Assembly (NCBI RefSeq): GCF_009930795.1 | Contig: NZ_CP017146.1 | Location: 3,100,001 to 3,164,000, forward strand | DNA: 64,000 bases | Origin: Marisediminicola antarctica | GTDB lineage: Bacteria > Actinomycetota > Actinomycetes > Actinomycetales > Microbacteriaceae | Direction of reading: 5' to 3' | Shown: positions 13,992 to 53,502 of the stretch, one piece after another | Position numbering within the stretch: position 1 is the stretch's first letter | How the letters are laid out: every line of letters starts with the position of its first letter | Translations under genes and position numbers: made by a program | The notes under the pieces: model-generated | What the model was told of the DNA's origin: nothing | Seen by the model: the letters and a program-made list of their open reading frames with translations, nothing else | The model's database searches: none

Positions 13992-14810
13992 TCAGGCGGC
14001 GGCGGCGTTCTTCTCGTCGCGCCAGGCGAGCCAGTCGTGCACAACTGCCAGATCGTAGTTCGGGCCGCTGATGCCGAGCGTGAAGAGCGTCGTTCCGAGC
14101 GCGAGCAGCTCGTCAGCCGTTTCGACTGTGCGGTTGCGGAGCTCATTCGACACCTCGATGGCGGCGAAGTCGCGACCGATCTCGCCGCACCAGCCCTCGA
14201 GCACCCCGAGCTTGTGCTCGAGTGTCGGCACGTCGGCGAAGCTGTGCCAGATGTCGGCGTGCGTCGCGACGATCTTGAGCGTCTTCTTCTCGCCGCCGCC
14301 GCCAATCAGCACCGGGATGTCGCGGGTCGGGGGCGGGTTGAGCTTGCCCCAGCGGTCCTCGATGAGCGGGAGGTCGCGGGCGAGGGCGTTGAGCCGGGAG
14401 CCCGCGGTGCCGAACTCGAAGCCGTACTCGTCATAATCACGCTCGAACCAGCCCGATCCGGTGCCGAAGATAAAGCGGCCGGTGCCGCCCTTGGCGCTGA
14501 TGTGGTCGATCGTGCGGGCCATGTCGGCCTGCAGGTTGGCGTTGCGGTAGCTGTTGCAGTTGACGAGCGCGCCCAGCTCGACGCGGCTGGTCTGCTCGGC
14601 GAGTGCCGCAAGCATCGTCCAGGACTCGAAGTGCAGCCCGTTCGGGTCGCCCGACAACGGGAAGAAATGGTCCCAGTTGAACAGGATGTCGACGCCGGCG
14701 TCCTCAAGGGCCGCCGCGGTGTCGCGGATCACCTCGTAGGGCGCGTGCTGGGGTGCGACCTGCACCCCGATGCGGACGGGACGGGCCTGGGCAGCGGGGG
14801 ATGCGGTCAT
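13992..14810 (-). CDS. LLM-class F420-dependent oxidoreductase
   Basis: A 272-residue TIM-barrel protein of the luciferase-like family; the F420-type subfamily is inferred from VRIGVQVAPQHAPYE, the DHFFPL motif and FGTGSGWFERDYDEYGFEF. The substrate is unknown. The ATG lies six bases after a TAGGCT box, so it is probably leaderless. It is oriented like betT but separated from it by 158 bp that include a hairpin, so cotranscription is doubtful. Confidence 0.85.
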   Translation of the reverse strand: MTASPAAQARPVRIGVQVAPQHAPYEVIRDTAAALEDAGVDILFNWDHFFPLSGDPNGLHFESWTMLAALAEQTSRVELGALVNCNSYRNANLQADMARTIDHISAKGGTGRFIFGTGSGWFERDYDEYGFEFGTAGSRLNALARDLPLIEDRWGKLNPPPTRDIPVLIGGGGEKKTLKIVATHADIWHSFADVPTLEHKLGVLEGWCGEIGRDFAAIEVSNELRNRTVETADELLALGTTLFTLGISGPNYDLAVVHDWLAWRDEKNAAAA

Positions 14811-16587: not shown

Positions 16588-17499
16588 GTGCGCTTCGGAA
16601 TTGTGATCCTCCCGCAGGAACCGTGGGCCGCGGCCCAGGATGCGTGGAAGGGCGCGGAGGCCTTCGGGTTCGACCATGCCTGGACCTACGACCACCTGTC
16701 CTGGCGCTCGCTCGCGAACGAGCCCTGGTATGCGACCGTGCCGACCCTCACCGCCGCGGCCGTGGTGACCGAGCGGATCAGACTCGGCACCTTCGTGTCG
16801 TCACCGAATTACCGGCATCCCGTGCCGTTCGCGAAGGAGATCGCGACGCTGGACGACATCTCCGGCGGCCGATTCATCCTCGGGGTCGGATCGGGTGGAA
16901 CGGGATTCGACGCCTCGGTGCTCGGCCAGGGCGAGCTCAGCCCGCGCGATCGCCACGAACGGTTCGCCGAGTTCGTGACCCAGCTCGACCGGCTGCTGCG
17001 GCACGAGGCCGAGGGGGAATCGGGCTTCGACCTCGACGGCACCTGGTTCACGGCATCCGGTGCACGCATGGTGGGCGCGCCGGCGCAGCAGCCACGCGTG
17101 CCGTTCGTGCTCGCCGCAAATGGGCCGAAGGGTCTGGAACTCGTCTGCCGGCACGCCGCCGGCTGGGTGACGACCGGCGCTGACGGCAAGGTCGGCGAGC
17201 CATGGTGGGGGTCGATCGCCGCACTTTCGGCACGGCTCGACGACGCCGCAGACTCCTCCGGGCGCGACCCGGCGAGCATCGACCGGTACCTTTCACTCGA
17301 TTCGGGCGGCTCGTTCTCGCTCACGAGCATCGGCGCGTTCGAGGATGCCGTCGGCCGGGCCGCCGAGCTCGGGTTCACCGACGTCGTGGCGCACTGGCCC
17401 AGGCGTGAGGGCGTCTATGCCGGCTCGACGGGCGTTCTCGACGATGTCGCCGCCCTGATCGCCGGGCGCCGGGCCCTGCCCCCTACTCTGGAACGATGA
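16588..17499 (+). CDS. LLM-class flavin or F420-dependent oxidoreductase
   Basis: A 303-residue luciferase-like TIM-barrel protein. Typical features are FDHAWTYDHLSWR near the N terminus, GTFVSSPNYRHPVPFAKEI, and the phosphate-binding FILGVGSGGTGFD. Whether it uses F420 or FMN cannot be decided by eye. Its stop codon overlaps the ATG of the gamma-carbonic anhydrase gene by four bases (ATGA), so the two are translated as a pair. The substrate is unknown. Confidence 0.85.
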   Translation: MRFGIVILPQEPWAAAQDAWKGAEAFGFDHAWTYDHLSWRSLANEPWYATVPTLTAAAVVTERIRLGTFVSSPNYRHPVPFAKEIATLDDISGGRFILGVGSGGTGFDASVLGQGELSPRDRHERFAEFVTQLDRLLRHEAEGESGFDLDGTWFTASGARMVGAPAQQPRVPFVLAANGPKGLELVCRHAAGWVTTGADGKVGEPWWGSIAALSARLDDAADSSGRDPASIDRYLSLDSGGSFSLTSIGAFEDAVGRAAELGFTDVVAHWPRREGVYAGSTGVLDDVAALIAGRRALPPTLER

Positions 17500-19942: not shown

Positions 19943-20911
19943 ATGACGAAGTTTGGTTTCCACGCATCTCACGAACAGGTGCACCCGAGCGCGCTGATTG
20001 CCGCGGTGCAGCGGGCCGAGCAGGCCGGCTTCGATGCGGCCATGTGCTCCGACCACCTCGTGCCCTGGAGCGAGCGGCAGGGCCATTCGGCATTCGCGTG
20101 GGCGTGGCTCGGCGCCGCACTGCAGGCGACGGCCCTCTCTTTCGGCGTCGTCAACGCGCCCGGGCAGAGGTACCACCCGGTGATCATCGCGCAGGCGATC
20201 GGCACCCTCGAGGCCATGTACCCCGGCCGGTTCTGGGTCGCGCTCGGCAGCGGCGAGGCGGCCAACGAGCACGTCACGGGCCAGGGGTGGCCGCGCAAGG
20301 AGCTGCGCAACGCCCGACTGCGGGAGTGCGTCGACATCATCCGCGCGCTGCTCGACGGCGAGGAGGTCAGCCACGACGGCCTCGTGACCGTCGATCGCGC
20401 GCGCCTCTGGACCAGACCGGAGACCCCACCCCCGCTCGTGGCCGCGGCCGTGAGCGTGGAGACGGCGACGTGGGCGGCCGAATGGGCCGACGGGCTCGCC
20501 ACGATCGCCCAGCCGGTCGAGAAGCTCCGCGACATGATCGCCGGATACCGGGACGCCGGGGGCAGGGGTGAGCTCGCGCTGCAGGTGCACGTGAGCTATG
20601 CGGAGACCGATGCCGAGGCGCTCGCCATCGCCCACGACCAGTGGCGCAGCAACGTCTTCGCACCTCCGCTGTGCTGGGACATCGACTCGGTCGAGGCCTT
20701 CGACGAGGCCTCGAAGCATGTGAGCCCGGAGCACATGCGCTCGTCGGTTCTCGTCTCATCGGACCCGGCCGAGTACGTGCACCAGCTTCGAGAGTGGTCC
20801 GAGCTCGGGTTCGACCGCATCTACATCCACCACGTCGGCCAGGAGCAGTCGCGGTTCATCGACGTCTTCGGCGAGCACGTGCTGCCCCAACTGAGCGGAG
20901 TGAACGCATGA
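19943..20911 (+). CDS. LLM-class oxidoreductase, paired with a GH13 enzyme
   Basis: A 322-residue luciferase-like protein starting TKFGFHASHEQVHPSALI, with CSDHLVPWSERQGHS, GVVNAPGQRYHPVIIAQAI and VALGSGEAANEHVTG, close to the F420-dependent glucose-6-phosphate dehydrogenase branch. It resembles the group described as having possibly reverted from F420 to flavin (TIGR03885), but that is from memory. AGGAGG lies nine bases upstream of the ATG. The stop overlaps the next start as ATGA, so it is coupled to the GH13 gene. Confidence 0.85.
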   Translation: MTKFGFHASHEQVHPSALIAAVQRAEQAGFDAAMCSDHLVPWSERQGHSAFAWAWLGAALQATALSFGVVNAPGQRYHPVIIAQAIGTLEAMYPGRFWVALGSGEAANEHVTGQGWPRKELRNARLRECVDIIRALLDGEEVSHDGLVTVDRARLWTRPETPPPLVAAAVSVETATWAAEWADGLATIAQPVEKLRDMIAGYRDAGGRGELALQVHVSYAETDAEALAIAHDQWRSNVFAPPLCWDIDSVEAFDEASKHVSPEHMRSSVLVSSDPAEYVHQLREWSELGFDRIYIHHVGQEQSRFIDVFGEHVLPQLSGVNA

Positions 20912-30697: not shown

Positions 30698-32020
30698 TCA
30701 GACTGCCTCGACGGCGGTGAAGGCCTCGTCGTAGATGGCGAGGGCGCGCGCGACCTCGTCGGGCGTGATGACACAGGGCGGCACCACGTGAATACGGTTG
30801 TCGGCGGCGAACGGCAGCAGGCCGCGCTTCATGAGCTCGCCCTTCAGCTCGCCGATGACCGCTGCCGAGACCGGTGCGCGGGTGGCGGGGTCCGAGACGA
30901 GGTCGAGCGCCCAGAACACGCCCATCCCCCGCACCTCGCCGATGAGCGGGTGTGCGGCGGCGAGCTCGGCGAGTCCGGGACCGAGGTGGTCCGTTCCGAT
31001 CATCCGCGCGTTGTCGATGATGCCCTCGTCGGCCATCGCGTCCATCGATGCGACGATTGACGCTGCGGCAAGCGGATGGCCGGAGTAGGTGAGCCCGCCG
31101 GGGAACACCTGGGTGTCGAACTCGTGCGCGATCGTCTCGGAGATGACGACGCCGCCGATTGGCACATAGCCGGAGTTGACGCCCTTGGCGAAGGTGATGA
31201 GGTCGGGGACGACGTCGAAGCCCTGGAAGGCGAACCACTCTCCCGTGCGGCCGAAGCCGCACATCACCTCGTCGAAGATGAGCAGGATGCCGTATTTGTC
31301 GCACAGCTCGCGCACGCCGGCGAGGTACCCGGGCGGTGGTACGAGCACGCCGGCGGTGCCGGGAACGCTCTCGAGCAGGATCGCCGCGATCGACGACGAG
31401 CCTTCGGCCTGGATGACGCGCTCGAGGTGGTGCAGCGCGCGGGCACACTCCTCCTCGGGTGTCTGCGCCCAGAACTCCGAGCGGTAGAGGAACGGCCCGA
31501 AGAAGTGCACGTGCCCGCGCGCATACTCATTGGGCACGCGGCGCCAGTCGCCGGTCGCGACGACCGCCGCGCCGGTATTGCCGTGGTACGAGCGATAAGT
31601 CGACAGCACCTTGTCGCGGCCCGTCGTGAGCCTCGCCATGCGGATCGCGTTCTCGTTCGCATCCGCCCCGCCGTTGGTAAAGAAGACGCTCCCGAAGCTC
31701 GATCCCGCCCGCGCGAGGATGCGCTGGGCAGCCTCGCCGCGGGCAAGGTTCGCGTGCGGAGGCGCGACCATCGTGATGATGTCGGCCTGGTCTTTGATGG
31801 CCTGGATGACCTTCGGATGCTGGTGTCCGATGTTCATGTTGACGAGCTGGCTCGAGAAGTCGAGGTACTCCTTGCCGTCGTAGTCCCACAGCGTCGAGCC
31901 GAGCGCCCCGGCGATCACGAAGGGCTTGAGCGCCGCCTGCGCCGACCAGGAGTGGAACACGTGGGCACGGTCCAGGTCGTATGCGAGCGTGCCGTCTGCC
32001 GGGTCGATCGTCGTGCTCAT
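30698..32020 (-). CDS. class III aminotransferase (beta-alanine/omega-amino acid type)
   Basis: A PLP enzyme of 440 residues. The lysine that binds PLP is K279 (in TFAKGVNSGY), and the ring aspartate is D250 (in LIFDEVMCGFGRTGEW). In this cluster the likely substrate is beta-alanine or beta-aminoisobutyrate, the end products of dihydropyrimidine hydrolysis, with pyruvate or 2-oxoglutarate as acceptor. Other omega-amino acids cannot be excluded. An AAGGAAC element precedes the ATG. Last gene of the minus-strand cluster, 75 bp after the binding-protein gene. Confidence 0.85.
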   Translation of the reverse strand: MSTTIDPADGTLAYDLDRAHVFHSWSAQAALKPFVIAGALGSTLWDYDGKEYLDFSSQLVNMNIGHQHPKVIQAIKDQADIITMVAPPHANLARGEAAQRILARAGSSFGSVFFTNGGADANENAIRMARLTTGRDKVLSTYRSYHGNTGAAVVATGDWRRVPNEYARGHVHFFGPFLYRSEFWAQTPEEECARALHHLERVIQAEGSSSIAAILLESVPGTAGVLVPPPGYLAGVRELCDKYGILLIFDEVMCGFGRTGEWFAFQGFDVVPDLITFAKGVNSGYVPIGGVVISETIAHEFDTQVFPGGLTYSGHPLAAASIVASMDAMADEGIIDNARMIGTDHLGPGLAELAAAHPLIGEVRGMGVFWALDLVSDPATRAPVSAAVIGELKGELMKRGLLPFAADNRIHVVPPCVITPDEVARALAIYDEAFTAVEAV

Positions 32021-32095
32021 GGTCGTTCCTTCGGTGAGATCCAGGGGTGAGCGGGGCCCCGAGGAAGGGGCCTCCGCTCACCCTAATTGGTGGAG

Positions 32096-33250
32096 CTACT
32101 TGCCGCCTTCATTGAGGGTGACCTCGATCGGTTCGAAGCTCTCGCCCGTCACGTCGATGCCCTCCTCTGTGAGCTCTGCGAGCGCGAGCTCGATGTACTC
32201 ATTCGTGTAGGCGTTCTCCGGCGGGTCGGTCGTGATGACCGTGGAGCCCTCGAGGTTCTTCGCGGTCTTGGCGACCGAGACGGTCTGCTCCCAGGCATCC
32301 TCGTTGATCACGCCGATGCCGTCGGGCGAGGGCCAGACGAGCTTGTTGACCTCGTTGGTCTGCCACAGCTGGTGGCTCGAGCCGAGCTGCGAGCCGGCGC
32401 CGACGACGATCTCGGCGGTCTCCTCCGGGAAGTCGCGCGCGTAGACGAAGCCCTTGATGACGGCCTTGAGGAAGGCGACCGCGGTCTCCTGGTACTCCTC
32501 GTCGGATTCGAGGCGTTCGGCGTTGGCCCAGATCGCATCCTGCAGCATCGCGGTGCCCTCGTCGTTCCAGTCGATGACGGTGAAGTCCTCCGGCTGGTAG
32601 AGCTCGCCCGTGTCTGGGTTGATCGTCTCGAGAACCTGCGCGTACTCGTTGTAGGTCATCGCTTGGGCTGCGTCGATGTCGCCGGCGAGCAACGCGGCCA
32701 TGTCGAACTGCTGCTGCACGAGCGTGACGTCGGTCGTCGGGTCGAGGCCGGCCTCGGTGATGCCGGCGAACAGCTCGAACTCGTTGCCGAAGCCCCAGTT
32801 GCCGACGTTCTTGCCCTCGAGGTCGGCGGCGGTGTCGATGCCGGCATCCGCGAAGGAGACCTGCAGGGTACCGGAGCGCTGGAAGATCTGGCCGATGTCG
32901 GTGATGCCGGCACCCTGCTCGATCGAGGCGAGCGCCTTGGGCACCCAGGCGATCGCGAAGTCGGCCTGCTGGTCGGCGAGCACGGTCTGCGGAACGATGT
33001 CGACGCCGCCCTCGACGATCTCGACGTCGAGGCCCTCATCTTCGAAGTAGCCCTGGTCGAGGGCCGCGTAATAGCCGGAGAACTGCGCCTGCGCGAACCA
33101 CTGCAGCTGCAGGGTCACGGGAGTGAGCCCGCCGTCGCCGCCGCCCGCCTCCGGCGTCTCGTCCGTGGTGGCGCTGCATCCGCTGAGAAATAGTGCCGAG
33201 GTGGCGACCATCGCGGCCGCTCCCATCCACACGCGCGTGCTGTGCTTCAT
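32096..33250 (-). CDS. NMT1/THI5-type ABC substrate-binding lipoprotein
   Basis: A 384-residue extracellular binding protein with a lipoprotein signal peptide (cleavage before Cys in LFLSGCSA, about residue 25) and an acidic mature N terminus. The core LQWFAQAQFSGYYAALDQGY is typical of the NMT1/THI5 family, which binds pyrimidines, sulfonates or nitrate-like ligands. The neighbours point to a pyrimidine, hydantoin or ureido ligand. AAGGAGA lies six bases before the ATG. Confidence 0.87.
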   Translation of the reverse strand: MKHSTRVWMGAAAMVATSALFLSGCSATTDETPEAGGGDGGLTPVTLQLQWFAQAQFSGYYAALDQGYFEDEGLDVEIVEGGVDIVPQTVLADQQADFAIAWVPKALASIEQGAGITDIGQIFQRSGTLQVSFADAGIDTAADLEGKNVGNWGFGNEFELFAGITEAGLDPTTDVTLVQQQFDMAALLAGDIDAAQAMTYNEYAQVLETINPDTGELYQPEDFTVIDWNDEGTAMLQDAIWANAERLESDEEYQETAVAFLKAVIKGFVYARDFPEETAEIVVGAGSQLGSSHQLWQTNEVNKLVWPSPDGIGVINEDAWEQTVSVAKTAKNLEGSTVITTDPPENAYTNEYIELALAELTEEGIDVTGESFEPIEVTLNEGGK

Positions 33251-33336
33251 GTTCTTCTCCTTCGTGCTGGTCGGATTTGCTGGTGACTGCTTCTTTCAGG
33301 CCACCCCGGCACCGTCGACAGGGGGACGTCGGGGGT

Positions 33337-34095
33337 TCACGCGGCGCGGCGCGAGACGGCTTTCTCGATCGCGAGAGTCGCGGCATAGAACACGACGCCG
33401 AGAATAATGGCGCCGAACACGTACGCCCAGGCTCGCGGGTAAGCACTGTTGGCCGCCGCCGAGGTGATGCGGGAGCCGAGTCCGTTCTGCAGCCCGCCGA
33501 AGTACTCCGCGACGATCGCCGAGATCACGGCGAGCGACGACGCGATGTTGAGTCCGGTGAATACGTAGGGCAGTGCGCCGGGGATCGTGACGGTGCGGCT
33601 GATCTGCCAGTTGGATGCCGCGTAGGCGCGCATGAGGTCGCGGTGCACCGGCAGCACCTGGCGGAGCCCGCGCAGGGTATTGATGAACACGGGGACGAAG
33701 ACGACGATCGCGACGATGACCCGGCGCGGCGTTTCACTCGTCGCCCCGTACATCGTGGTGAGCACGGGGGCGAGGGCCACGATCGGCACGACGGCGATCG
33801 CAGCGACGACGGGCGTCAGCAGCTCGTCGATGAAGCTGAGGCGGGAGGCGAGCAGGGCCATGCTGATGGCCAGCAGCGCCCCCGCGATCAGTCCGATGAG
33901 CGCGTTGGCGCCGGTTGCGAGGAACGACGTCCAGAGCACCGGCAGCACGAGACCCAGCTGCGTGAGGATCGCCGTCGGAGCGGGCAGGAGGTAGGGCTGG
34001 ATGTCGCCCAGAATGACAAGCAGCTCCCAGGCGACAAGGGCGACCAGCCCGAGTGCCACGGGCGGCAGCACGAAACGCAGGGTCGCGGATCTCAT
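33337..34095 (-). CDS. ABC transporter permease (second copy in the importer)
   Basis: A 252-residue inner-membrane protein with about six helices. The permease-ATPase coupling loop is seen at MRAYAASNWQISRTVTIPGALPYVF-like positions (about residues 150-175, key residues EAA-like A-Y-A, then IPGALP). Its start overlaps the ATPase stop by four bases. It works with the permease at 34910 as a heterodimer of the SsuC/TauC/ThiX type. Confidence 0.88.
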   Translation of the reverse strand: MRSATLRFVLPPVALGLVALVAWELLVILGDIQPYLLPAPTAILTQLGLVLPVLWTSFLATGANALIGLIAGALLAISMALLASRLSFIDELLTPVVAAIAVVPIVALAPVLTTMYGATSETPRRVIVAIVVFVPVFINTLRGLRQVLPVHRDLMRAYAASNWQISRTVTIPGALPYVFTGLNIASSLAVISAIVAEYFGGLQNGLGSRITSAAANSAYPRAWAYVFGAIILGVVFYAATLAIEKAVSRRAA

Positions 34096-34913
34096 CGCAG
34101 GTCCACTCCCCGCACAGCGTTATCCGGCCGCGTCTCGGTCGGTGCCCCGTGCAGCGCCTCGCGCACCCGCGTGACGCCCTCGAAGAAGCTGTCCTCCTCG
34201 CGCAGCGTCTCGCCGCGCTTCTCGCCGAGGGCGACGTCGACGATCTCGCGGATGCGGCCCGGCCGCGGCGACATGACCACTACACGGTCGGAGAGGAACA
34301 CCGCCTCGGGGATCGAGTGGGTGACGAACACGACGGCGGCGCCCGTCTCGGCGCAAATGCGCACGAGCTCGGTCTGCATGCGCTCGCGCGTCATCTCATC
34401 GAGCGCGCCGAACGGCTCGTCCATGAGCAGCAGCTCGGGGCTCTCCGCGAGCGACCGCGCGATCGCGACTCGCTGCTGCATGCCTCCGGAAAGCTGGTCG
34501 GGGAAGTTGGCGGCGAAGTCGGACAGCCCGACAAGAGCCATCAGCTCCGCGACGCGCGCGCGCCGCGTCGCCGCAGGCACCCGGTGCAGCTGCAGCGGCA
34601 GTTCGATGTTCGCCTCGACGGTGCGCCACGGCAGGAGCCCCGCGCTCTGGAACGCGATGCCGTAGTCCTGGTCGAGCCGGGCCTGGTGGGCGGGCTTGCC
34701 GAAAACGGTTACGGCTCCGGACGTCGGCTGGTCGAGGTCGGCGATGAGGCGCAGGAGCGTCGACTTGCCGCATCCGGACGGCCCGATCAGCGAGACGAAC
34801 TCGCCCGCCTTCACCGTGAGGCTCACCTCGTCGAGCGCGGTGACCCCGTCGCCCTTCTTGACGGGGAAGGTCTTCGTGACGTCGCTCACCTGAACGGCGA
34901 TGGCGTGGCTCAT
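34092..34913 (-). CDS. ABC transporter ATP-binding protein
   Basis: A 273-residue ATPase of the nitrate/sulfonate/taurine type. Walker A GPSGCGKST (about 47-55), signature LSGGMQQRVAIARSL and Walker B LLLMDEPFGALDE are intact, and the H-loop is in VTHSIPEAV. The ATG at 34913 overlaps the upstream permease stop as ATGA, and its own stop overlaps the next permease start. A longer in-frame extension upstream is not supported. Confidence 0.92.
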   Translation of the reverse strand: MSHAIAVQVSDVTKTFPVKKGDGVTALDEVSLTVKAGEFVSLIGPSGCGKSTLLRLIADLDQPTSGAVTVFGKPAHQARLDQDYGIAFQSAGLLPWRTVEANIELPLQLHRVPAATRRARVAELMALVGLSDFAANFPDQLSGGMQQRVAIARSLAESPELLLMDEPFGALDEMTRERMQTELVRICAETGAAVVFVTHSIPEAVFLSDRVVVMSPRPGRIREIVDVALGEKRGETLREEDSFFEGVTRVREALHGAPTETRPDNAVRGVDLR

Positions 34914-35791
34914 GCGGTCACCTCGTTTCTGCGATAGCGCTTCAGGGTCGCTCCGGCGAGCGCGACGATTGCCGCCGCGGCGAGGCCCATGATCACGGCG
35001 ACGGCGATGGGCGAGTAGGCCTTCGCCGGGTCGCTCGATCCCGACTGGGCGTATTCGATGATGAGGCGGCCGATGCCGCCCTTGGCACCCGTGGACACCT
35101 CGGCGACGACGGTGCCGATGATGGCGGATGCCGCGCCGAGGCGCAGCGCCGGCAGTAGGTACGGCACGCTCGCGGGAAGCCGCAGGTGGATCAGGGTCGC
35201 CCACCACCCGGTCGCGTAGGCGTGGAACAGCTCCACGTTGATCTCGTCGGGCGACTGGAGGCCGCGCAGCGCACCGACTGCCACGGGGAAGAACGCGAGG
35301 TAGGCCGCGATCACGGCCACCGACATCCACCGCTCCCACTCGAAGGTTCCGATCTGCACCCGGCCACCCCAGCTGACGATGAGCGGGGCGAGGGCGATGA
35401 GCGGCACCGTCTGGCTGAGCACGAGCCACGGCAGCACCGCCGACTCGGCGACGCGGAACCGCTGCATGAGCAGCGCCAGCCCGAAGCCGACGATCGAGCC
35501 GATGAGCAGGCCAACGGATGCCGTGCCGAGGCTTGAGAGGCCGGCGAGCAGCACCGAGGTCCACACGGGCGGCGACCCCTCCGACGAGTTCACGGGCTCC
35601 AGTGCGCGGGCGATCATGTCCCAGATGTGGGGCATTGCGAGGTCGGTGGTGCGCGGCAGCAGCTGCAGCCCGGCCACATCGACCCCCTCGGCGGGACCGA
35701 CGGCCTTGTAGAGCTCCCAGATCACCCCGAGCAGCACGATCGCGAGCGCGCCGAGCCCGATGCGCCTGGCCAGACCGGTCATCCCGCGCAC
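34910..35791 (-). CDS. ABC transporter permease (first copy in the importer)
   Basis: A 293-residue permease with about six helices and the coupling-loop segment ELFHAYATGWWATLIHLRLP followed by ASVPYLLPALR. It is paired with the second permease at 33337. The start is ambiguous: GTG at 35791 or ATG at 35782, neither with a strong Shine-Dalgarno sequence. It lies seven bases after the LLM stop and is probably translated by coupling. Confidence 0.88.
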   Translation of the reverse strand: MRGMTGLARRIGLGALAIVLLGVIWELYKAVGPAEGVDVAGLQLLPRTTDLAMPHIWDMIARALEPVNSSEGSPPVWTSVLLAGLSSLGTASVGLLIGSIVGFGLALLMQRFRVAESAVLPWLVLSQTVPLIALAPLIVSWGGRVQIGTFEWERWMSVAVIAAYLAFFPVAVGALRGLQSPDEINVELFHAYATGWWATLIHLRLPASVPYLLPALRLGAASAIIGTVVAEVSTGAKGGIGRLIIEYAQSGSSDPAKAYSPIAVAVIMGLAAAAIVALAGATLKRYRRNEVTA

Positions 35792-35798
35792 GGCCCCG

Positions 35799-36815
35799 TC
35801 ATGCCTTGGCCACGATCTTCTCCTTGAGTGCGGGGATGACGCTCTCCCCGTACACGCGCAGGGTCTCCTCCTTGTTGTCGTGCTGCAGGTAGCCGGCGAA
35901 CTGGTCGACGCCGAGCTCCCTCAGGGCTTTCAGCTTCTCGATGTGCTGCTCGGCGCTGCCCAGCAGGCAGAAGCGGTCCACGATCTCGTCCGGCACGAAG
36001 TCGGCGTGGGTGTTGCCGGCGAGTCCGTGCTGGTTGTAGTCATACCCTTCACGCGCCTCGATGTAGTCGGTGAGCGCCTTCGGTACGGAGCCATTGGCGC
36101 CGTACTTGGCGACGATGTCGGCCACGTGATTTCCGACCATCCCGCCGAACCAGCGCGTCTGGTTGCGCATGTGATCGATGTCGTCACCGATGTACATGGG
36201 CGCGGCGACGCAGAACTTGACGTCCATTGGGTCGCGGCCGGCCTTCTCCGCGGCCTCCCGCACCGTCGTGATCATCCACGCGGCGATGTCGAGGTCGGCG
36301 AGCTGCAGGATGAAGCCGTCGCCGACCTCGCCCGCGAGCTTGAGGGCGAGCGGCCCGTAGGCGGCGACCCACACCTCGAGCGACGACCCGACGCTCCACG
36401 GAAATTGCACGGTCGCGCCGTTGTACTCGACCGCGCGACTGTTGGCGAGCTCGCGGATGACGTGGATCGACTCGCGCAGCGTCCTGAGCGTGGTCGGGGC
36501 GCCTCCCGTGACGCGCACGGCCGAGTCGCCCCTGCCGATGCCGCAGATGGTGCGGTTGCCGTACATCTCGTTGAGGGTGGCGTAGGTGGATGCTGTGACG
36601 GTCCAGTCGCGGGTCGCCGGGTTGGTGACCATCGGGCCGACGATGACACGGTTCGTCTCGGCCAGGATGCGGCTGTAGATCACATAGGGCTCCTGCCAGA
36701 GCAGGTGCGAGTCGAAGGTCCACACGTGGCTGAACCCGTACTGCTCCGCGAGCTTTGCGAGGTGCACGGTGCGCGAGGCGGGCGGGGTGGTCTGAATTAC
36801 TGCTCCGAAATCCAC
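35799..36815 (-). CDS. LLM-class F420-dependent oxidoreductase in the pyrimidine cluster
   Basis: A 338-residue protein that starts DFGAVIQTTPPASRTVHLA and contains VWTFDSHLLWQEPYVI and ICGIGRGDSAVR, close to methylene-tetrahydromethanopterin reductase-like F420 enzymes (TIGR03842 type, from memory). It is embedded between dihydropyrimidinase and the importer, so a redox step on a pyrimidine, hydantoin or ring-opened product is inferred. No dihydropyrimidine dehydrogenase (PydA) gene is present in the window. GTG start, eight bases after the dihydropyrimidinase stop. Confidence 0.87.
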   Translation of the reverse strand: MDFGAVIQTTPPASRTVHLAKLAEQYGFSHVWTFDSHLLWQEPYVIYSRILAETNRVIVGPMVTNPATRDWTVTASTYATLNEMYGNRTICGIGRGDSAVRVTGGAPTTLRTLRESIHVIRELANSRAVEYNGATVQFPWSVGSSLEVWVAAYGPLALKLAGEVGDGFILQLADLDIAAWMITTVREAAEKAGRDPMDVKFCVAAPMYIGDDIDHMRNQTRWFGGMVGNHVADIVAKYGANGSVPKALTDYIEAREGYDYNQHGLAGNTHADFVPDEIVDRFCLLGSAEQHIEKLKALRELGVDQFAGYLQHDNKEETLRVYGESVIPALKEKIVAKA

Positions 36816-36823
36816 TGTGTTCC

Positions 36824-38245
<1,422 letters not shown>

Positions 38246-38268
38246 TACTGCTCCCTTGCAGCTGGCGG

Positions 38269-39117
38269 TTACGGGGCGACGGTGGCGGTGTAGGAGTCCG
38301 GGCGGCGGTCCCGGTAGAACTGCCAGTTGTTGCGCACCTCGCGGATGACGTCGAGGTCGAGGTCGCGGATGACGGTCTCGGTCTGGTCCTCGCTCGCGAT
38401 ATCGCCGACGAAGTTGCCGCGCGGATCGACGAAGTAGCTCGACCCGTAGAAGGTCACGGCCTTGTCGCCGAACTCCTCGGTCTCGGTGCCGACCCGGTTG
38501 TTCGCTCCGATGTAGTACTGGTTGGCGGCGGCCGCAGCGGGCTGCTCCAGCTCCCACAGGCGGTTCGACAGCCCCGGTTTTGTGGCCGAGGGGTTGAAGA
38601 CGATCTCGGCGCCGTTCAGCCCGAGCTCACGCCATCCCTCGGGGAAGTGGCGGTCGTAGCAGATGTAGACGCCGACCTTGCCGACCCTGGTGTTGAAGAC
38701 GGGGTAGCCGAGGTTGCCGGGGCGGAAGTAGAACTTCTCCCAGAAGCGGTCGAGGTTGGGGATGTGGTGCTTGCGGTAGCTGCCGAGGTTCTCTCCGTCG
38801 GCGTCGATCACGACGGCCGTGTTGTAGTACACGCCCGGCATGGCCTCTTCATAGATGGGCAGCACGATGACGATGCCGAGTTCCTTCGCGAGCGCCTGAA
38901 AACGTGTCGTGGTGGGACCGGGGATCGACTCTGCGTAGTCGTAGTACTTGGCATCCTCGATGATGCCGAAGTAGGGCCCATAGAACAGCTCTTGGAAGCA
39001 GATGATCTGCGCGCCCTGGGCGGCCGCGTCGCGCGCGAACTTCTCGTGCTTGGCGATCATCGATTCCTTGTCACCGGTCCAGGTGGTCTGGGTCAGTGCT
39101 GCACGTACAACGGTCAA
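38269..39117 (-). CDS. pydC: nitrilase-superfamily N-carbamoyl-beta-alanine amidohydrolase
   Basis: Hydrolyses N-carbamoyl-beta-amino acids to the amino acid, CO2 and ammonia, the step after dihydropyrimidinase. From the TTG at 39117 the protein has 282 residues with the triad E43 (FQELFYGP), K116 (YRKHHIP) and C153 (VYICYDRHFPEGWREL). The TTG is preferred because AGGAGG lies six bases upstream; ATG codons at 39150 and 39186 lack such a site. First gene of the cluster. An N-carbamoyl-D-amino-acid hydrolase is the alternative. Confidence 0.88.
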   Translation of the reverse strand: MTVVRAALTQTTWTGDKESMIAKHEKFARDAAAQGAQIICFQELFYGPYFGIIEDAKYYDYAESIPGPTTTRFQALAKELGIVIVLPIYEEAMPGVYYNTAVVIDADGENLGSYRKHHIPNLDRFWEKFYFRPGNLGYPVFNTRVGKVGVYICYDRHFPEGWRELGLNGAEIVFNPSATKPGLSNRLWELEQPAAAAANQYYIGANNRVGTETEEFGDKAVTFYGSSYFVDPRGNFVGDIASEDQTETVIRDLDLDVIREVRNNWQFYRDRRPDSYTATVAP

Positions 39118-39389
39118 GGTGGGCCTCCTGGTCTGAGCGCGTGATGTCATTGTCAGACGCTCACATTTCGGAATCGTTTCCAACAATGACGTTGGCGTAA
39201 AACCTACGGCTCATCTGGGCTAGTGCATAGAGCCGCGCCGTGGCCCGGCCGAGACCCGGCGTGCACGCCGCTGTCGCAACTGCCGATCTCCATCGCCTGA
39301 GAGGACGCCTCCCACTCGGCTGACAGCGACCAATGACGTGGGATGATGCTCGAAGCACGAGCGGCAACGACGACGGATGGGGGACGCTC
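39118..39389. promoter_or_regulatory. divergent control region of the pyrimidine cluster and the GNAT-AAA gene
   Basis: A 272-bp interval between divergent genes. A perfect 8-bp inverted repeat, GTCATTGT (39146-39153) and ACAATGAC (39183-39190), flanks 29 bp just upstream of the amidohydrolase start. It could be an operator of a GntR-like repressor, but no regulator gene is nearby. The remainder shows no clear feature. Confidence 0.3.
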
Positions 39390-48377: not shown

Positions 48378-48900
48378 TGTTTGATAGCCAGCAAGCAAGC
48401 TCACCGACACATCTAGCGCCCCAAGCCACCGGAAATAGGTGAACAAGAAGCAAGTTTGAAACTGACAGAACAAATCATTACTGACTTGCTTTGTTGTTTA
48501 AATGTATTCCAAAGGAATCTCCTGCATCCATCACCGCTAGAAACGGGACGAAATACACGAGGTTTTTGGCATTTGACATTGTGCACGCTGTTGAGTTCTC
48601 AAGGATCGGACGCTCCTGCACCACACCCTCACGGGCAGCCACAGGGCAACTTCACAATCTTACCACTTGAACTTCGTCATCCTGACCACCAGAGGCGGCG
48701 AGGAGAGTATCAATCCAAGCGGGTTACTATCCTATGCTCCGAAGCCGGGTCCTTGCTACCAAGGACTACTTCAGAACCGGATTTTGTGCCTCTTGAGGCC
48801 GTTCAGCACTGCGGCTGGGCGAACCTTTGGGGCGACAAGAGGAAACATTACGTGGCGCCGGGGGACTGAGCAAATCCCGGCCGCTGCCCGGGCGTGTCGC
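48378..48900 (-). promoter_or_regulatory. rRNA operon leader and promoter region
   Basis: No coding gene is supported here. A boxA-like element (minus strand, CCTTGAGAACTCAACAGCG, at 48581-48604) is the known actinobacterial leader motif. The promoter lies further upstream (about 48650-48800), where CATAGGATAGT and TGATACTCT could be -10 boxes, but spacing to a -35 is not good for either, so I do not fix it. Confidence 0.55.
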
Positions 48901-49037
48901 GCCCGCCGATGGTCGCTAAACTGGGCGTATCAGGCCCCTGCACCGGATGTGGTGCGGTGCGTCGGTCCCGGATTTGGGGCGGCAGGTCTCCCCGCGAGTC
49001 CCCTCGCGCTCCTATTGCCGACCGACCGAGAGACGCC

Positions 49038-50048
49038 ATGACGAACCCGACGCGTACCCGCATTCCCCTCCCCCGCCGCATCCGCCCACTGGCCGGCCTG
49101 GCCGCGGCAGGACTTCTCGCCGTCACCGGCTGTTCCGCCACGTCGACTGGCGCCGAGAACTCCGCCGCTCCGGCCGACGCGGTCATCGACAACTGCGGCA
49201 CCGAGGTCGACACGGCTGCCGCGCCCGAGCGCATCGTCACCATCAAGTCGACCTCCACCGAACTGCTCATTGCGCTCGGGCTCGCCGACCGCGTGATCGG
49301 GTCTGCCTTCCAGGACGGCCCCGTTCCCGAGGAGTGGGCCGCGGCCGCAGCCGACATCCCCGTCATCTCTGACTTCGCCCCGAGCCAGGAGGCCGTGCTC
49401 GAGCTCGAGCCCGACTTCGTCTTCGCGGGGTGGGAGTCGATGCTCACCGCCGAGGCCGCCGGTGATCGCGCCTCGCTCGCCGGGCTCGGCATCGGCACCT
49501 ACGTGGCGCCGTCCGCGTGCAAAGAGTCCGGCTACCAGCCTGAGAAACTGACCTTCGACGAGGTCTTCGCCCAGATCGCCGAAGCTGGACGGGTGTTCCA
49601 CGCCCAGGAGGCGGCCGCCGACCTGGTGGCCGAGCAGCGCTCCGCCCTCGAGGCGATCGAGTCTGATGACCGGGGCATGAGTGCGCTCTGGTATTCCTCG
49701 GGCACCGACACCCCCTATGTGGGCGCCGGCATCGGGGCACCTCAGATGATGATGGAGCGCCTCGGGCTGACCAATGTCGCTGCCGATGTCGCCGACACGT
49801 GGAGCCCGCTCGGCTGGGAGGCCATCATCGACGCCGACCCCGACGTGATCGTGCTCGTGGATGCCTCGTGGAACACCGCCGCGAGCAAGATCGAGCTCCT
49901 CGAGTCGAACCCGGCCACCGCGGCCCTCGGCGCGGTACAGTCCTCCCGCTACCTGGTGGTCCCGTTCGCAGCGGGCGAGGCCGGCGTGCGCAACGTCTCG
50001 GCCACGGCCAATCTCGCACAGCAGCTCGCAGCCGTCGATGTCGAGTAG
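49038..50048 (+). CDS. substrate-binding lipoprotein of a putative F420-precursor ABC importer
   Basis: A 336-residue BtuF/FhuD-type lipoprotein: a Tat/Sec-like Arg-rich N terminus, a lipobox LAVTGCSA (Cys32), then the TroA-like fold (ERIVTIKSTSTELLIALGL, DFAPSQEAVLELEPDFVFAG). It is followed by a permease, an ATPase and cofD. Clusters of this kind have been annotated as a putative F420-0 transporter (TIGR03868 and related), a genome-context proposal that has not been tested here. A cobalamin or siderophore ligand is the alternative. Confidence 0.85.
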   Translation: MTNPTRTRIPLPRRIRPLAGLAAAGLLAVTGCSATSTGAENSAAPADAVIDNCGTEVDTAAAPERIVTIKSTSTELLIALGLADRVIGSAFQDGPVPEEWAAAAADIPVISDFAPSQEAVLELEPDFVFAGWESMLTAEAAGDRASLAGLGIGTYVAPSACKESGYQPEKLTFDEVFAQIAEAGRVFHAQEAAADLVAEQRSALEAIESDDRGMSALWYSSGTDTPYVGAGIGAPQMMMERLGLTNVAADVADTWSPLGWEAIIDADPDVIVLVDASWNTAASKIELLESNPATAALGAVQSSRYLVVPFAAGEAGVRNVSATANLAQQLAAVDVE

Positions 50049-50054
50049 CTGAGC

Positions 50055-51074
50055 GTGCGCACGGCACGCCCTTCGCGCATCCTCTTCGCCTCGATCACAC
50101 TCGCGGCGGCGCTCGTCGCCTCGATCGCCGCCGCGGTGACTTTCGGGCCCGCCGATATCCGGTTCGACGAGGTCTGGGCCTCGATCGGCAGTCATCTGGG
50201 GCTCGGGGTCACCCCGCTGTCGCCGCTGCGCGACGGAATCGTCTGGGAACTTCGATTGCCGCGGGTGCTCACGGCAGCGGCGGTCGGTGCGGGCCTGGCG
50301 ATCTCCGGCGCGGTCATGCAGGCGGTCACCCGCAACCCGCTCGCCGACCCCTATCTGCTGGGTCTCTCCTCAGGGGCATCGCTCGGCGCCGTCGCGGTGC
50401 TCGTGCTCGGCGTCTCGGTGCTATTGCCGGCGGCCGCGTTCCTCGGCGCGCTCGTCGCCCTCGCGGCGACGCTGTTGATCGCCGGCTCCGGCTCCGCCCT
50501 CACCCCGAGCCGGATGATCCTCGCCGGGATTGCGGTCTCGAGCCTTGGTGCCGCGCTCACGAGCTTCGTCATCTTCTGGACGGCGACGGGAGACTCCTAT
50601 CGCGAAATCATCTCGTGGCTTCTCGGCTCGCTCGCCGGCGCGCGCTGGCCCGCTGTCGCCATCGCCGTCACCGCAATCGTCGTGATCGGAATCCCGCTCA
50701 TGATCGGCGGGAGGGTGCTGGATGCCTTCGCCTTCGGAGACACGTCGGCTGCCGCACTCGGCGTGAGCGTCGCCCGCACCCGATGGGTCATGCTCGTCGG
50801 CACGGCACTGCTGACCGGTGGGATGGTCTCGGTGAGCGGATCGATCGGCTTCGTGGGCCTCATCCTCCCCCACGCCGTGCGCCTGATCGTCGGAGCCCAG
50901 CACCGAGCCCTGCTGCCGCTGGCCGCGCTGTCGGGCGCCATCTTCCTGATCTGGTGCGACACCGCGGCTCGCGCCCTGTTCGATCCGCGGGAGCTCCCCG
51001 TCGGAATCGTCACGGCGGTCATCGGCGCACCTGTTTTCGTGCTGCTCCTCATGCGCTCGCGGAGGTTCGCATGA
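50055..51074 (+). CDS. FecCD/BtuC-family permease of the F420-linked importer
   Basis: A 339-residue permease with about ten helices. The signatures LPRVLTAAAVGAGLAISGAV, QAVTRNPLADPYLLGLSSGA and GSIGFVGLILPHAVR are typical of the cobalamin/siderophore permease family. It starts with GTG six bases after the binding-protein stop and overlaps the ATPase start by four bases. The homodimer presumably forms the channel. Confidence 0.92.
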   Translation: MRTARPSRILFASITLAAALVASIAAAVTFGPADIRFDEVWASIGSHLGLGVTPLSPLRDGIVWELRLPRVLTAAAVGAGLAISGAVMQAVTRNPLADPYLLGLSSGASLGAVAVLVLGVSVLLPAAAFLGALVALAATLLIAGSGSALTPSRMILAGIAVSSLGAALTSFVIFWTATGDSYREIISWLLGSLAGARWPAVAIAVTAIVVIGIPLMIGGRVLDAFAFGDTSAAALGVSVARTRWVMLVGTALLTGGMVSVSGSIGFVGLILPHAVRLIVGAQHRALLPLAALSGAIFLIWCDTAARALFDPRELPVGIVTAVIGAPVFVLLLMRSRRFA

Positions 51075-51886
51075 TTCCGGATGCTGAACGGGTCGACTCG
51101 ATGAGCGCGCAGCAGCTCTCGGTCGTCCTCGGCGGACGCGCCGTCGTCGACGCTGTCGACGCCGAACTGCGCGGGGGACGGCTGACCGCGATCCTCGGCC
51201 CGAACGGCGCGGGCAAGTCGAGCCTCATCCGGGTGCTCGCGGGCATCGACCGCCCGGCATCCGGCGCACTCAGCTGGGCGGGAGAAGACTGGTTCGCCAC
51301 GAGCAGGCGAGACCGTGCGCGGGTCGCGGCACTCGTCGAGCAGGATGTCAGCGCCGAGCTGCCCCTGACCGTGCGCATGGCGGTTGCCCTCGGCCGCACG
51401 CCTCACGCCTCCTTTCTGGCCGGGCCGTCGCGACGCGACGACGAGGTCATCGACGCCGCGATGGCGGATGCTGGCGTCACCGGATTCGCGCACCGTCAGA
51501 TCAGCACGCTGTCGGGCGGCGAACGCCAACGCGCGCACCTCGCGCGGGCCCTCGCCCAGGAGCCGAGGCTGCTGCTGCTCGACGAGCCGACCAACCATCT
51601 CGACGTGCTCGCGCAGCTCACGACCCTGGCGCTCGTTCGCGACCTGGCCACGAGGAATGGGCTCGCGGTCGTCGCTGCGCTGCACGATCTGAACCTCGCG
51701 GTCGCGTTCGCCGATCATGTCGTGGTACTCGACGCGGGCCGTGTGCGCGCATCCGGCCCACCCGCCGAGGTGCTCACCCCTGACCTCATCCTCCGCGTGT
51801 GGCATGTGGCGGCGACGGTGCTCACCCACCCTGTAAGCGGCGCGCCCGTGATCACCTTCGACCGTCCCGAGAGGACCCACCCATGA
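51071..51886 (+). CDS. ATP-binding protein of the F420-linked importer
   Basis: A 271-residue FhuC/BtuD-type ATPase: Walker A GPNGAGKSS (about 41-49), signature LSGGERQRAHLARAL, Walker B LLLLDEPTNHLD and H-loop histidine in LHDLNLAV. The ATG at 51071 overlaps the permease stop and has GGAGG upstream. The stop overlaps the cofD start (ATGA), so importer and cofD are translated as one unit. Confidence 0.93.
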   Translation: MIPDAERVDSMSAQQLSVVLGGRAVVDAVDAELRGGRLTAILGPNGAGKSSLIRVLAGIDRPASGALSWAGEDWFATSRRDRARVAALVEQDVSAELPLTVRMAVALGRTPHASFLAGPSRRDDEVIDAAMADAGVTGFAHRQISTLSGGERQRAHLARALAQEPRLLLLDEPTNHLDVLAQLTTLALVRDLATRNGLAVVAALHDLNLAVAFADHVVVLDAGRVRASGPPAEVLTPDLILRVWHVAATVLTHPVSGAPVITFDRPERTHP

Positions 51887-52875
51887 CAGCGATCACCGTG
51901 TTGGCCGGAGGCGTCGGCGGTGCCCGATTCACCCGCGGACTCCGCGAGCACCTTGCGGGGACCGACGCGGCAATCACCGTGATCGCCAACACCGGCGACG
52001 ACATGTGGCTCGCCGGACTGCGCGTGTGTCCCGACCTCGACTCGATCATGTACACGCTCGGCGGAGCGAACGACGACGTCCGCGGCTGGGGCCGCGTCGG
52101 CGAGTCGGAGCGGGTCAGCGCCGAACTCGACGCCTATGGAATCGGCTGGCCCTGGTTCACCCTCGGCGACCTCGACCTCGGAACGCACATCGCGAGATCG
52201 GCGCTGCTGCGCGACGGCCTCACCCTCACCGAGGCGACCGAGCAGCTGTGCGCCCGTTGGAATCTCGGCGTGCGCCTGCTCCCCGTCAGCGACGACGAGG
52301 TCGAGACGAACGTGGAGATCATTGACCCGGCCGACGGCACCCGTCGCGTCATCCACTTCGAGGAGTGGTGGGTGCGGCACCGCGCCGCCGTTCCCGCCCG
52401 GCGATTTGTACAGCGCGGCATCGAGGGCGCGCGTGCCACGGATGCAGCGGTGGAGGCGATCGGGTCCGCCGACGTCGTGCTCGTCGCGCCCTCCAACCCG
52501 GTGGTATCGATCGGCACTCTCGTCGCGATCCCGGGCATCGCCGGGGCGCTGGCCGTCACCGCGGCACCGGTCGTCGGCGTCTCGCCGATCATCGACGGGC
52601 GGGCTGTGCGCGGCATGGCCGAGGCCTGCCTCGCCGCGATCGGCGTCGCCGCGACCTCGGGTGCCGTCGCGCGCCACTACGGTTCCCGCCGGTCCGGGGG
52701 CCTGCTTGACGGATGGCTCGTCGACGCGGCGGATGCCGCCGCACTGCCGGGAATCGAGAGCGCGGGAATCCGCGCCGCGGCCGTGCCCCTGTGGATGAAC
52801 GACCTGCCGAGCTCCGCACACCTCGCTGCCGACGCTCTGCTCCTCGCCGATCGGATCCGCGCACGGATCACCTGA
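51883..52875 (+). CDS. cofD: 2-phospho-L-lactate transferase (F420 biosynthesis)
   Basis: Joins the phospholactyl (or phosphoenolpyruvyl) group to Fo, giving F420-0 or dehydro-F420-0. The 330-residue protein (also called FbiA) has the N-terminal GGVGGARFTRGL, NTGDDMWLAGLRVCPDLDS and the C-terminal SPIIDGRAVRGMAE and APSNPVVSIGTL. The start is fixed by the ATGA overlap with the importer ATPase. It converges on cofC, with nine bases between the two stops. Confidence 0.95.
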   Translation: MTAITVLAGGVGGARFTRGLREHLAGTDAAITVIANTGDDMWLAGLRVCPDLDSIMYTLGGANDDVRGWGRVGESERVSAELDAYGIGWPWFTLGDLDLGTHIARSALLRDGLTLTEATEQLCARWNLGVRLLPVSDDEVETNVEIIDPADGTRRVIHFEEWWVRHRAAVPARRFVQRGIEGARATDAAVEAIGSADVVLVAPSNPVVSIGTLVAIPGIAGALAVTAAPVVGVSPIIDGRAVRGMAEACLAAIGVAATSGAVARHYGSRRSGGLLDGWLVDAADAAALPGIESAGIRAAAVPLWMNDLPSSAHLAADALLLADRIRARIT

Positions 52876-52884
52876 CCGGTCCCG

Positions 52885-53502
52885 CTAAGCGGGGTGCTCT
52901 GCCCGCGTCGACACGACGCTCGCTGTGGCTTCGCCGATGCCGAGGGTCAGTGCCGTTGCGAGATCGGTGACGGTGTCGACGTCCCAGCGCAGCGCCGACC
53001 CAACCGGAATCGCGAGGACGGCGTGGCCCGCCGCCTCGTGCCGCTCCCGCGAGCAGGGCCCGAACCGTGGCTCGAGCGCGGCCCCGTTCGAGGAGGCGAT
53101 GAGGGTCGTTCCGACACCGCTGTGGTCGGCCACCATCGACAGCTCGAACAGCTCGGCGAGGATCAGGGCGCCGTCGAGGTCGGCGGTGCCGAGGGCGGGG
53201 AGGTCTCCCGTGAGCACCGCGACGCCGCAGGTGCGCGCGGCACGGATGCCCGCCGTCGCCGCCGCGTTGAGCCCTGTGCCGGGGTCCGGCACGATCCACG
53301 CTCCCAGCGCAGTAGCCCGCTCCACGACCCGCGCATCGGGGGTGACGACGATGACCTCGTCGACGAGCACGCTGTTCCGGGCGGCGACGATGGTGTCGGT
53401 CGCGAAGGCGAGCGCGAGATCGGCGACATCCGCGAGGTCCGGGCGCAGGCGGCTCTTCGCCTCGTCGAGCCGCTTGACGGGGATCACGATCGTCCAGTTC
53501 AC
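52885..53502 (-). CDS. cofC: 2-phospho-L-lactate (or PEP) guanylyltransferase
   Basis: Activates phospholactate or phosphoenolpyruvate with GTP for CofD (FbiD in mycobacteria). The 205-residue nucleotidyltransferase has the N-terminal VIPVKRLDEAKSRLRP, DPGTGLNAAATAGI, and VLTGDLPALGTADLDGAL. GTG start overlapping the tgpA stop as GTGA. It is therefore the last gene of the moxR-DUF58-tgpA operon, and it converges on cofD. Confidence 0.93.
   Translation of the reverse strand: MNWTIVIPVKRLDEAKSRLRPDLADVADLALAFATDTIVAARNSVLVDEVIVVTPDARVVERATALGAWIVPDPGTGLNAAATAGIRAARTCGVAVLTGDLPALGTADLDGALILAELFELSMVADHSGVGTTLIASSNGAALEPRFGPCSRERHEAAGHAVLAIPVGSALRWDVDTVTDLATALTLGIGEATASVVSTRAEHPA

Follow-up and report, generated by a model that had tools for sequence, protein, structure and literature searches.

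A candidate F420H2-dependent dihydropyrimidine dehydrogenase in a pyrimidine-catabolic operon of Marisediminicola antarctica

Introduction

The closest described counterpart of the system analysed here is the Pyd pathway of reductive pyrimidine catabolism, which begins with PydA (dihydropyrimidine dehydrogenase, DPD) or PreTA. According to passages of PMC7332683, Pyd clusters contain PydB, PydC, PydD and MSDH, and their reductant varies between NADPH, NADH and ferredoxin, a ferredoxin-dependent PydA being among those described. Here we analyse an operon of Marisediminicola antarctica, on the minus strand at 30698-39186 of a 64 kb window (the whole stretch of DNA analysed, bases 3100001-3164000 of the single 3,352,609-base contig of this complete genome). 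It shares with the Pyd pathway a dihydropyrimidinase (DHP), a β-ureidopropionase-like amidase and an aminotransferase, as well as, in sister clusters only, a methylmalonate-semialdehyde dehydrogenase (MMSDH). However, it has no iron-sulphur PydA with the dihydroorotate-dehydrogenase fold, and carries instead an unrelated protein of the luciferase-like (LLM) fold, a member of family TIGR03842, for which F420H2 is the proposed electron donor.

The LLM fold is shared over its full length with methylene-H4MPT reductase (Mer) and other F420 hydride transferases such as Fgd and Adf (Z-score 34-35.5 for Mer, 26-30% identity, Mer being nearest by sequence). TIGR03842 differs from these as a separate subfamily with conserved positions of its own (for instance N229-H230 and Y258-D-Y-x2-H263) and a pyrimidine base as proposed substrate. 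RutA, a pyrimidine oxygenase using flavin mononucleotide (FMN), also has the LLM fold and acts on uracil, as is proposed for TIGR03842, but is only 15-17% identical to the M. antarctica protein. RutA opens the ring oxidatively, and dihydropyrimidinase is not used.

Two further systems may be compared by their described function. In Chloroflexota, a putative F420-dependent yanthine reductase, likewise an F420-type LLM protein, is proposed in passages of PMC12507026 as the substitute reductase of a ring-degradation cluster; it belongs to a purine pathway, and its function is likewise a proposal. In the biosynthesis of uridyl-peptide antibiotics the counterpart is NpsU/SSGG-03002, a putative F420/FMN oxidoreductase; disruption of SSGG-03002 abolished reduction of the uracil C5=C6 bond in mureidomycin, as described in part of PMC10714638. 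By analogy, this offers a chemical precedent for F420-type reduction of uracil. In passages of the 2021 FEMS review on F420 (PMC8498797), the row for the remaining LLM enzymes of the F420 type gives their function as 'unknown'. No report of an F420-dependent dihydropyrimidine dehydrogenase was found among the open-licence papers listed by our searches, judged by titles, abstract openings and passages, and the passages seen of PMC10143877 and PMC8305020 contain nothing on F420-type pyrimidine reduction.

On the basis of the observations below, we hold it highly probable that the operon encodes reductive pyrimidine catabolism with its first enzyme exchanged, the TIGR03842 protein acting as an F420H2-dependent dihydropyrimidine dehydrogenase in place of PydA. 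The enzyme would act like PydA without being a member of the PydA family, and so probably represents a novel entry into pyrimidine degradation.

Results and discussion

An operon without PydA

Profile scans with NCBIfam and Pfam identified eight genes, all on the minus strand and in the order given by the first-pass annotation (Table 1): amidase, DHP, LLM enzyme, permease, ATPase and permease of an ATP-binding cassette (ABC) importer, substrate-binding lipoprotein and class III aminotransferase. The DHP, LLM enzyme and aminotransferase exceed their NCBIfam cut-offs, and the ABC genes were identified through Pfam only. The amidase is present as annotated at first, but the position then taken as its start, 39117, is an inner one: the open frame reaches 39186, and the start codon may be at 39186, 39150 or 39117. 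Its top NCBIfam match is N-carbamoylputrescine amidase, and because this is below the cut-off (252.8 against 410) its substrate is assigned from context. The aminotransferase would act on β-alanine or β-aminoisobutyrate; provision of β-alanine for pantothenate (a subject of PMC7142369) was also considered as a possible role. Neither MMSDH nor an NCS1 permease is found in this operon. That the genes form the frame of a pyrimidine-catabolic pathway is close to certain.

The first-pass annotation had noted that the window contains no PydA, and had named in advance a conventional pydA elsewhere in the genome, needed for growth on uracil, as evidence against its proposal. The search was extended to the complete 3.35 Mb genome, where all 12 first-look candidates were scored. 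The sole match to PF01180, the dihydroorotate-dehydrogenase fold, is a quinone-dependent PyrD (503.6 bits, cut-off 433), which reaches only 33 bits against the PreA model (cut-off 335), and no PreA match is found in the genome at 1e-60. A hidden PydA was rejected on the basis of this genome-wide PF01180 search.

The genome has 15 places matching the LLM profile PF00296. RutA-like ring opening was considered and rejected: none of the 14 places scanned reaches the RutA cut-off (top score 75.2 of 498.3 bits; the piece at genome positions 493167-493496 was left out), and a DHP is present. The LLM match that includes this piece (C1:492300-494600, L164) is broken over two frames, 493167-493496 and 493465-493620, and is possibly a decayed or frameshifted gene.

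The LLM enzyme is of the F420 type

The LLM protein covers positions 1-329 of the 329 in the TIGR03842 (F420_CPS_4043) profile, and its AlphaFold2 model is confident (pLDDT 91.0, pTM 0.90). Searched with a 30-sequence alignment, the Protein Data Bank gives Mer as the best match; further F420 enzymes come next, and FMN enzymes score lower. The fold searches agree: rows 1-22 from Foldseek and rows 1-15 from the VIA fold search are all F420 enzymes, Mer having a Z-score of 35.5 and a root-mean-square deviation of 2.6 over 314 residues. The PydA/DPD fold is not among the 50 VIA rows listed, as expected of an unrelated fold. The first description of the protein as an F420-type LLM enzyme inside the operon is borne out by the family score and by these closest relatives.

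Thirteen residues are invariant in both TIGR03842 alignments: W40, W140, W149, Y153, W222, F223, N229, H230, R255, Y258, D259, Y260 and H263. The last five lie within segment 231-270, where model confidence is lower (block means 75-76). It is our guess that the invariant residues touch the pyrimidine.

The LLM fold is common to FMN enzymes, and the enzyme might instead use FMNH2. It would then be an FMN-dependent reductase, or else an oxygenase similar to RutA that cleaves the ring of uracil; RutA with bound uracil (6sgl) does occur in the VIA list (Z-score 25.0, 15% identity). This is improbable, since F420 enzymes head both the sequence and the fold rankings and a RutA-type product does not need dihydropyrimidinase. 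The supply of the cofactor, discussed below, bears on the same question.

Distribution of the cluster

The arrangement was compared in 120 TIGR03842 loci from Actinomycetota. Of these, 40 (7-20 kb, shorter at contig ends) were chosen by hand from 65 places over the cut-off, and 80 are the best of 582 confirmed matches, 72-87% identical and biased to close relatives. A DHP, CN-hydrolase or Zn-dependent carbamoylase lies at most 10 kb from the LLM gene in 118 of the 120; with comparable neighbours recurring this often, the arrangement of the operon is not chance. DHP is less than 200 bases away on the same strand in 76/80 loci of the larger set and 9/40 of the smaller. Queries with PreA and PreT gave no match at 1e-20 in the 120 loci.

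Open frames of 800 residues in some genomes hinted at a fusion of LLM enzyme and DHP. This was not supported: tblastn gives separate matches, with DHP ending before the LLM enzyme starts. A second type of cluster is seen in family f18 (L044, L045, L052, L053, L067 and L069-L073), where TIGR03842 accompanies a more distant DHP and aminotransferase, a Zn-dependent carbamoylase and an NCS1 permease, these genes not all being present in every locus. The hydrolase and transporter parts have therefore been exchanged, and the LLM enzyme retained.

At the level of whole genomes, 296 Actinomycetota were sampled, the best first-look candidates being scored in each (five for PreA and DHP, six or seven for the others). 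TIGR03842 is over the cut-off in 62 and DHP in 87. The association of this LLM subgroup with DHP and with absence of pydA, which the first-pass annotation had looked to, is evident: 59 of the 62 genomes with TIGR03842 also have DHP, compared with 28 of the 234 that lack it (Fisher p 1.4e-36, uncorrected for kinship), and PreA reaches 1e-60 in only two genomes (G191 and G208), both TIGR03842-negative. CofH is present at 1e-40 in 184 of the 296, including 52 of the 62.

Outside Actinomycetota, a plasmid of Leisingera aquaemixtae carries the operon cofG-cofH-cofD-cofC-cofE-npdG-TIGR03842, the last protein scoring 506.0 bits. Divergent from it are genes for transhydrogenase alpha and beta, an omega-aminotransferase, a Zn-dependent hydrolase, DHP and an NCS1 nucleobase symporter; PreA is absent from the 33 kb read. 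In L. caerulea and Paracoccus alcaliphilus the F420 operon likewise ends in TIGR03842, followed in Paracoccus by an ABC importer. Searching the plasmid collection with the LLM protein at 1e-60 gave 12 records, ten from Leisingera, one from Paracoccus and one from Streptomyces.

Deinococcus sp. QL22 has a similar set of transport and hydrolysis genes, but with the classical dehydrogenase. Its plasmid row comprises an NAD(P)-dependent oxidoreductase, taken for PreT from its position, together with PreA, DHP, an NMT1-type ABC importer, a carbamoylase and PucR, and includes a relative of the M. antarctica binding protein (31% identical).

Cofactor supply

As first annotated, the window contains F420-maturation genes: cofC, cofD and cofE all exceed their cut-offs. 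The genome also encodes F420-dependent glucose-6-phosphate dehydrogenase (Fgd; 679.6 bits, cut-off 420). Two features had gone unmentioned, namely the absence of FO synthase (FbiC) and the presence of an F420-0-type importer beside cofD. In the M. antarctica genome TIGR03551 has no match, and an FbiC query from Microcella has none at E<=1, with two control genomes positive. With FbiC missing, we rejected the simple statement that M. antarctica makes F420 and put import in its place; its F420 supply therefore rests on the putative importer.

This was followed up in 120 genomes of Microbacteriaceae, each at least 95% complete. TIGR03842 is found in 55, CofD in 54 and CofH (at 1e-20) in 25, of which 6 are over the cut-off. 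An orthologue of the importer binding protein, defined by at least 45% identity (others reach at most 38%; up to 16 candidates were scored per genome, and the G338 protein is in two pieces), occurs in 36. It is present in all 33 TIGR03842-positive genomes that lack CofH and in none of the 22 that have it. Either an FbiC match or the binding protein is thus found in 55/55 TIGR03842-positive genomes, against 6/65 of the negative. Similarly, at least two of the three importer genes lie at the cofD locus in 22 of 29 CofH-negative genomes and 0 of 25 CofH-positive. On a quickly built CofD tree, at least 13 changes are required to account for the exchange between FbiC and importer. Nine independent contrasts across well-supported branches gave 6-7 in opposite directions, 2-3 with no difference and none in the same direction (p 0.016-0.031). 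Three CofD-positive genomes have neither FbiC nor importer (G309, G319 and G342), and all are TIGR03842-negative. This mutual exclusion is strong genomic support for deazaflavin salvage.

Ten of the 55 TIGR03842-positive genomes have neither CofD nor CofH (G297, G331, G352, G355, G362, G366, G367, G371, G388 and G404), and all ten have the binding protein. In G366, the one examined for this, cofE is found next to the importer in the neighbourhood of the pyrimidine cluster. FO was considered as the imported molecule; TIGR03868 and TIGR03869 name F420-0, however, and G366 has cofE and importer without CofD. These observations favour F420-0 rather than FO, and M. antarctica probably takes up F420-0 or a related deazaflavin, which CofE would complete. 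Such an importer is already predicted by the NCBIfam 'putative F420-0 ABC transporter' families; what is added here is quantitative support. Weaker importer matches in eight CofH-positive genomes of the phylum sample (best 198-250 bits, against 520-571 in the family) are taken for paralogues on their scores.

It is worth adding that in eight genomes (L172-L178 and L180) FbiC keeps the first radical-SAM motif, in its CofG half, and has lost the CxxxCxxC of its CofH half. CofD is present in 8/8 of these, TIGR03842 in 7/8 and the importer orthologue in 0/8.

For the FMN-dependent alternative, the lack of FbiC in M. antarctica and the ten genomes without CofD and CofH are the points in favour. They are countered by the binding protein in all ten, by the cofE beside the importer in G366, and by the position of the gene at the end of an F420-biosynthesis operon in the Alphaproteobacteria examined. 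Fold, family and cofactor supply together favour F420 over FMN.

Substrate and proposed pathway

By tblastn, 46/120 loci have a same-strand MMSDH gene, whose product shares 41-100% identity with that of L144; a same-strand NCS1 permease is present in 18/120. In L051 and L144 the gene between DHP and LLM enzyme encodes a CoA-acylating MMSDH, over the cut-off; this is the enzyme expected downstream of a β-amino-acid transaminase. The permeases of L052 and L131 are of the NCS1 family (cytosine/purine/uracil/allantoin), the latter below the NCBIfam ncs1 cut-off. The first-pass annotation had left the choice between uracil/thymine and hydantoins; MMSDH and NCS1 in the sister clusters favour uracil/thymine, and hydantoins are disfavoured.

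The operon might nevertheless degrade another cyclic ureide, a hydantoin or a thiamine-type pyrimidine, with the LLM enzyme performing a redox step on that compound. The DHP family model is named D-hydantoinase, the best family of the amidase is the sub-threshold one mentioned above, the M. antarctica cluster itself has neither MMSDH nor NCS1, and NMT1-type binding proteins are known in thiamine-pyrimidine uptake. However, the two sister-cluster genes together with the class III aminotransferase indicate β-amino acids derived from uracil/thymine, and PreA and DHP are accompanied elsewhere by related binding proteins of the NMT1 type, so that we consider this a slightly poorer candidate even than an FMN enzyme. 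Least probable of all is that a ready-made dihydropyrimidine is imported and the LLM enzyme is an accessory F420 reductase (acting for example on a toxic by-product) rather than the first step: DHP clusters with an importer and neither LLM enzyme nor PreA nearby do exist in Thalassospira and Sinorhizobium, but apart from the first step the pathway has no reduction left unassigned, PreA holds a comparable place in Deinococcus sp. QL22, and the close same-strand pairing with DHP recurs in both locus sets.

We therefore return to the TIGR03842 enzyme as an F420H2-dependent dihydropyrimidine dehydrogenase. The ABC importer would bring in uracil, thymine or a close relative, and the TIGR03842 enzyme would reduce its C5=C6 bond by hydride transfer from F420H2, with dihydrouracil or dihydrothymine as product. 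The dihydropyrimidinase would open the ring, the CN-hydrolase amidase would release ammonia, CO2 and β-alanine or β-aminoisobutyrate, and the aminotransferase would yield (methyl)malonate semialdehyde. The next enzyme would be the CoA-acylating MMSDH found in many sister clusters and not in the M. antarctica operon. F420 would be re-reduced by Fgd in M. antarctica, and in Leisingera probably by NpdG (NADPH:F420 reductase), perhaps fed by the transhydrogenase. Very likely, TIGR03842 catalyses the reduction with which the pathway begins and uses F420H2 for it. The original suggestion that reduced F420 drives uracil/thymine reduction through the LLM enzyme is supported by the absence of PydA, the co-occurrence with DHP and the F420-type fold.

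Several observations weigh against this proposal. TIGR03842 is graded only a 'hypothetical equivalog', and attempts at uracil reduction in vitro failed in the mureidomycin study, as stated in part of PMC10714638. As regards distribution, 28 of the 87 DHP-positive genomes lack TIGR03842, absences are judged from the few candidates scored in each genome (five with PreA, 16 with the importer protein), and the 80-locus set, as the nearest of 582, consists of members that are not independent. L059 and L074 have no hydrolase nearby (L059 has MMSDH only, and L074 ends with its contig), and DHP is not annotated in the 21 kb Paracoccus locus. As regards the cofactor, there is the missing FbiC of M. antarctica itself. 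Ten of the 62 TIGR03842-positive genomes of the phylum sample also lack CofH at 1e-40; three are Microbacteriaceae with the importer, and in the other seven, partly fragmented assemblies (G119, G160, G177, G188, G216, G227 and G259), no strong importer orthologue is found, which may reflect assembly gaps or another source of F420. Finally, only 6 of the 22 Microbacteriaceae positive for both FbiC and TIGR03842 exceed the CofH cut-off, and 8 of 10 aligned FbiC proteins lack the second radical-SAM motif; the cofactor of those species is therefore uncertain.

More broadly, we think it likely that this enzyme, as a non-homologous replacement of PydA, provides the main reductive route for uracil and thymine in Actinomycetota, and that some lineages keep F420 largely for it, whether by synthesis, by the importer or by the plasmid operon of Leisingera. 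If so, a family of F420 enzymes that is widespread but labelled 'hypothetical' would gain a substrate and a pathway, and pyrimidine degradation by the many DHP-bearing actinobacteria without PydA would be explained. Reduction of the pyrimidine ring would have a second protein solution, unrelated to PydA, and the retention of F420 in some non-mycobacterial actinobacteria, and in a few marine bacteria that carry the genes on plasmids, would be partly accounted for. Cross-feeding of F420 precursors becomes testable.

Other genes of the window

Table 1 Positions of the operon, of the cofactor-supply genes and of further LLM genes in the 64 kb window
Feature	Position	Strand	Evidence
CN-hydrolase amidase, probable β-ureidopropionase (PydC-like, nitrilase superfamily)	38269-39186	-	PF00795 226.6 bits
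Dihydropyrimidinase (DHP; PydB/HydA)	36824-38245	-	TIGR02033 551.7 bits, cut-off 393.25
LLM hydride transferase, proposed F420H2-dependent dihydropyrimidine dehydrogenase	35799-36815	-	TIGR03842 587.5 bits, cut-off 295.45
ABC permease A	34910-35791	-	PF00528 64.7 bits
ABC ATPase, approximate start	34092-34883	-	PF00005 121.3 bits
ABC permease B	33337-34095	-	PF00528 73.0 bits
NMT1/THI5-like substrate-binding lipoprotein, proposed pyrimidine binder	32096-33250	-	PF09084 117.5 bits
Class III aminotransferase, proposed β-alanine/β-aminoisobutyrate transaminase	30698-32020	-	NF004718 738.8 bits, cut-off 472; PF00202 285.7 bits
Substrate-binding protein, putative F420-0 ABC importer	48894-50045	+	TIGR03868 463.2 bits, cut-off 392.4
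Permease, putative F420-0 ABC importer	50055-51071	+	TIGR03869 497.7 bits, cut-off 437.35
ATPase, putative F420-0 importer, approximate start	51101-51883	+	ABC motifs in the open frame separating permease and cofD
cofD/fbiA, longest open frame, first in-frame ATG 51883	51799-52872	+	TIGR01819 324.6 bits, cut-off 257.45
cofC/fbiD	52888-53502	-	PF01983 43.1 bits, cut-off 22
cofE (F420-0:glutamate ligase)	58086-58850	-	TIGR01916 229.9 bits, cut-off 180.65
LLM enzyme	13995-14810	-	
LLM enzyme	16588-17496	+	
LLM enzyme	19943-20908	+	
LLM enzyme	58854-59852	-	

The window encodes four more LLM enzymes (Table 1). The last of these adjoins cofE, and the same pairing recurs at several related cofD loci.

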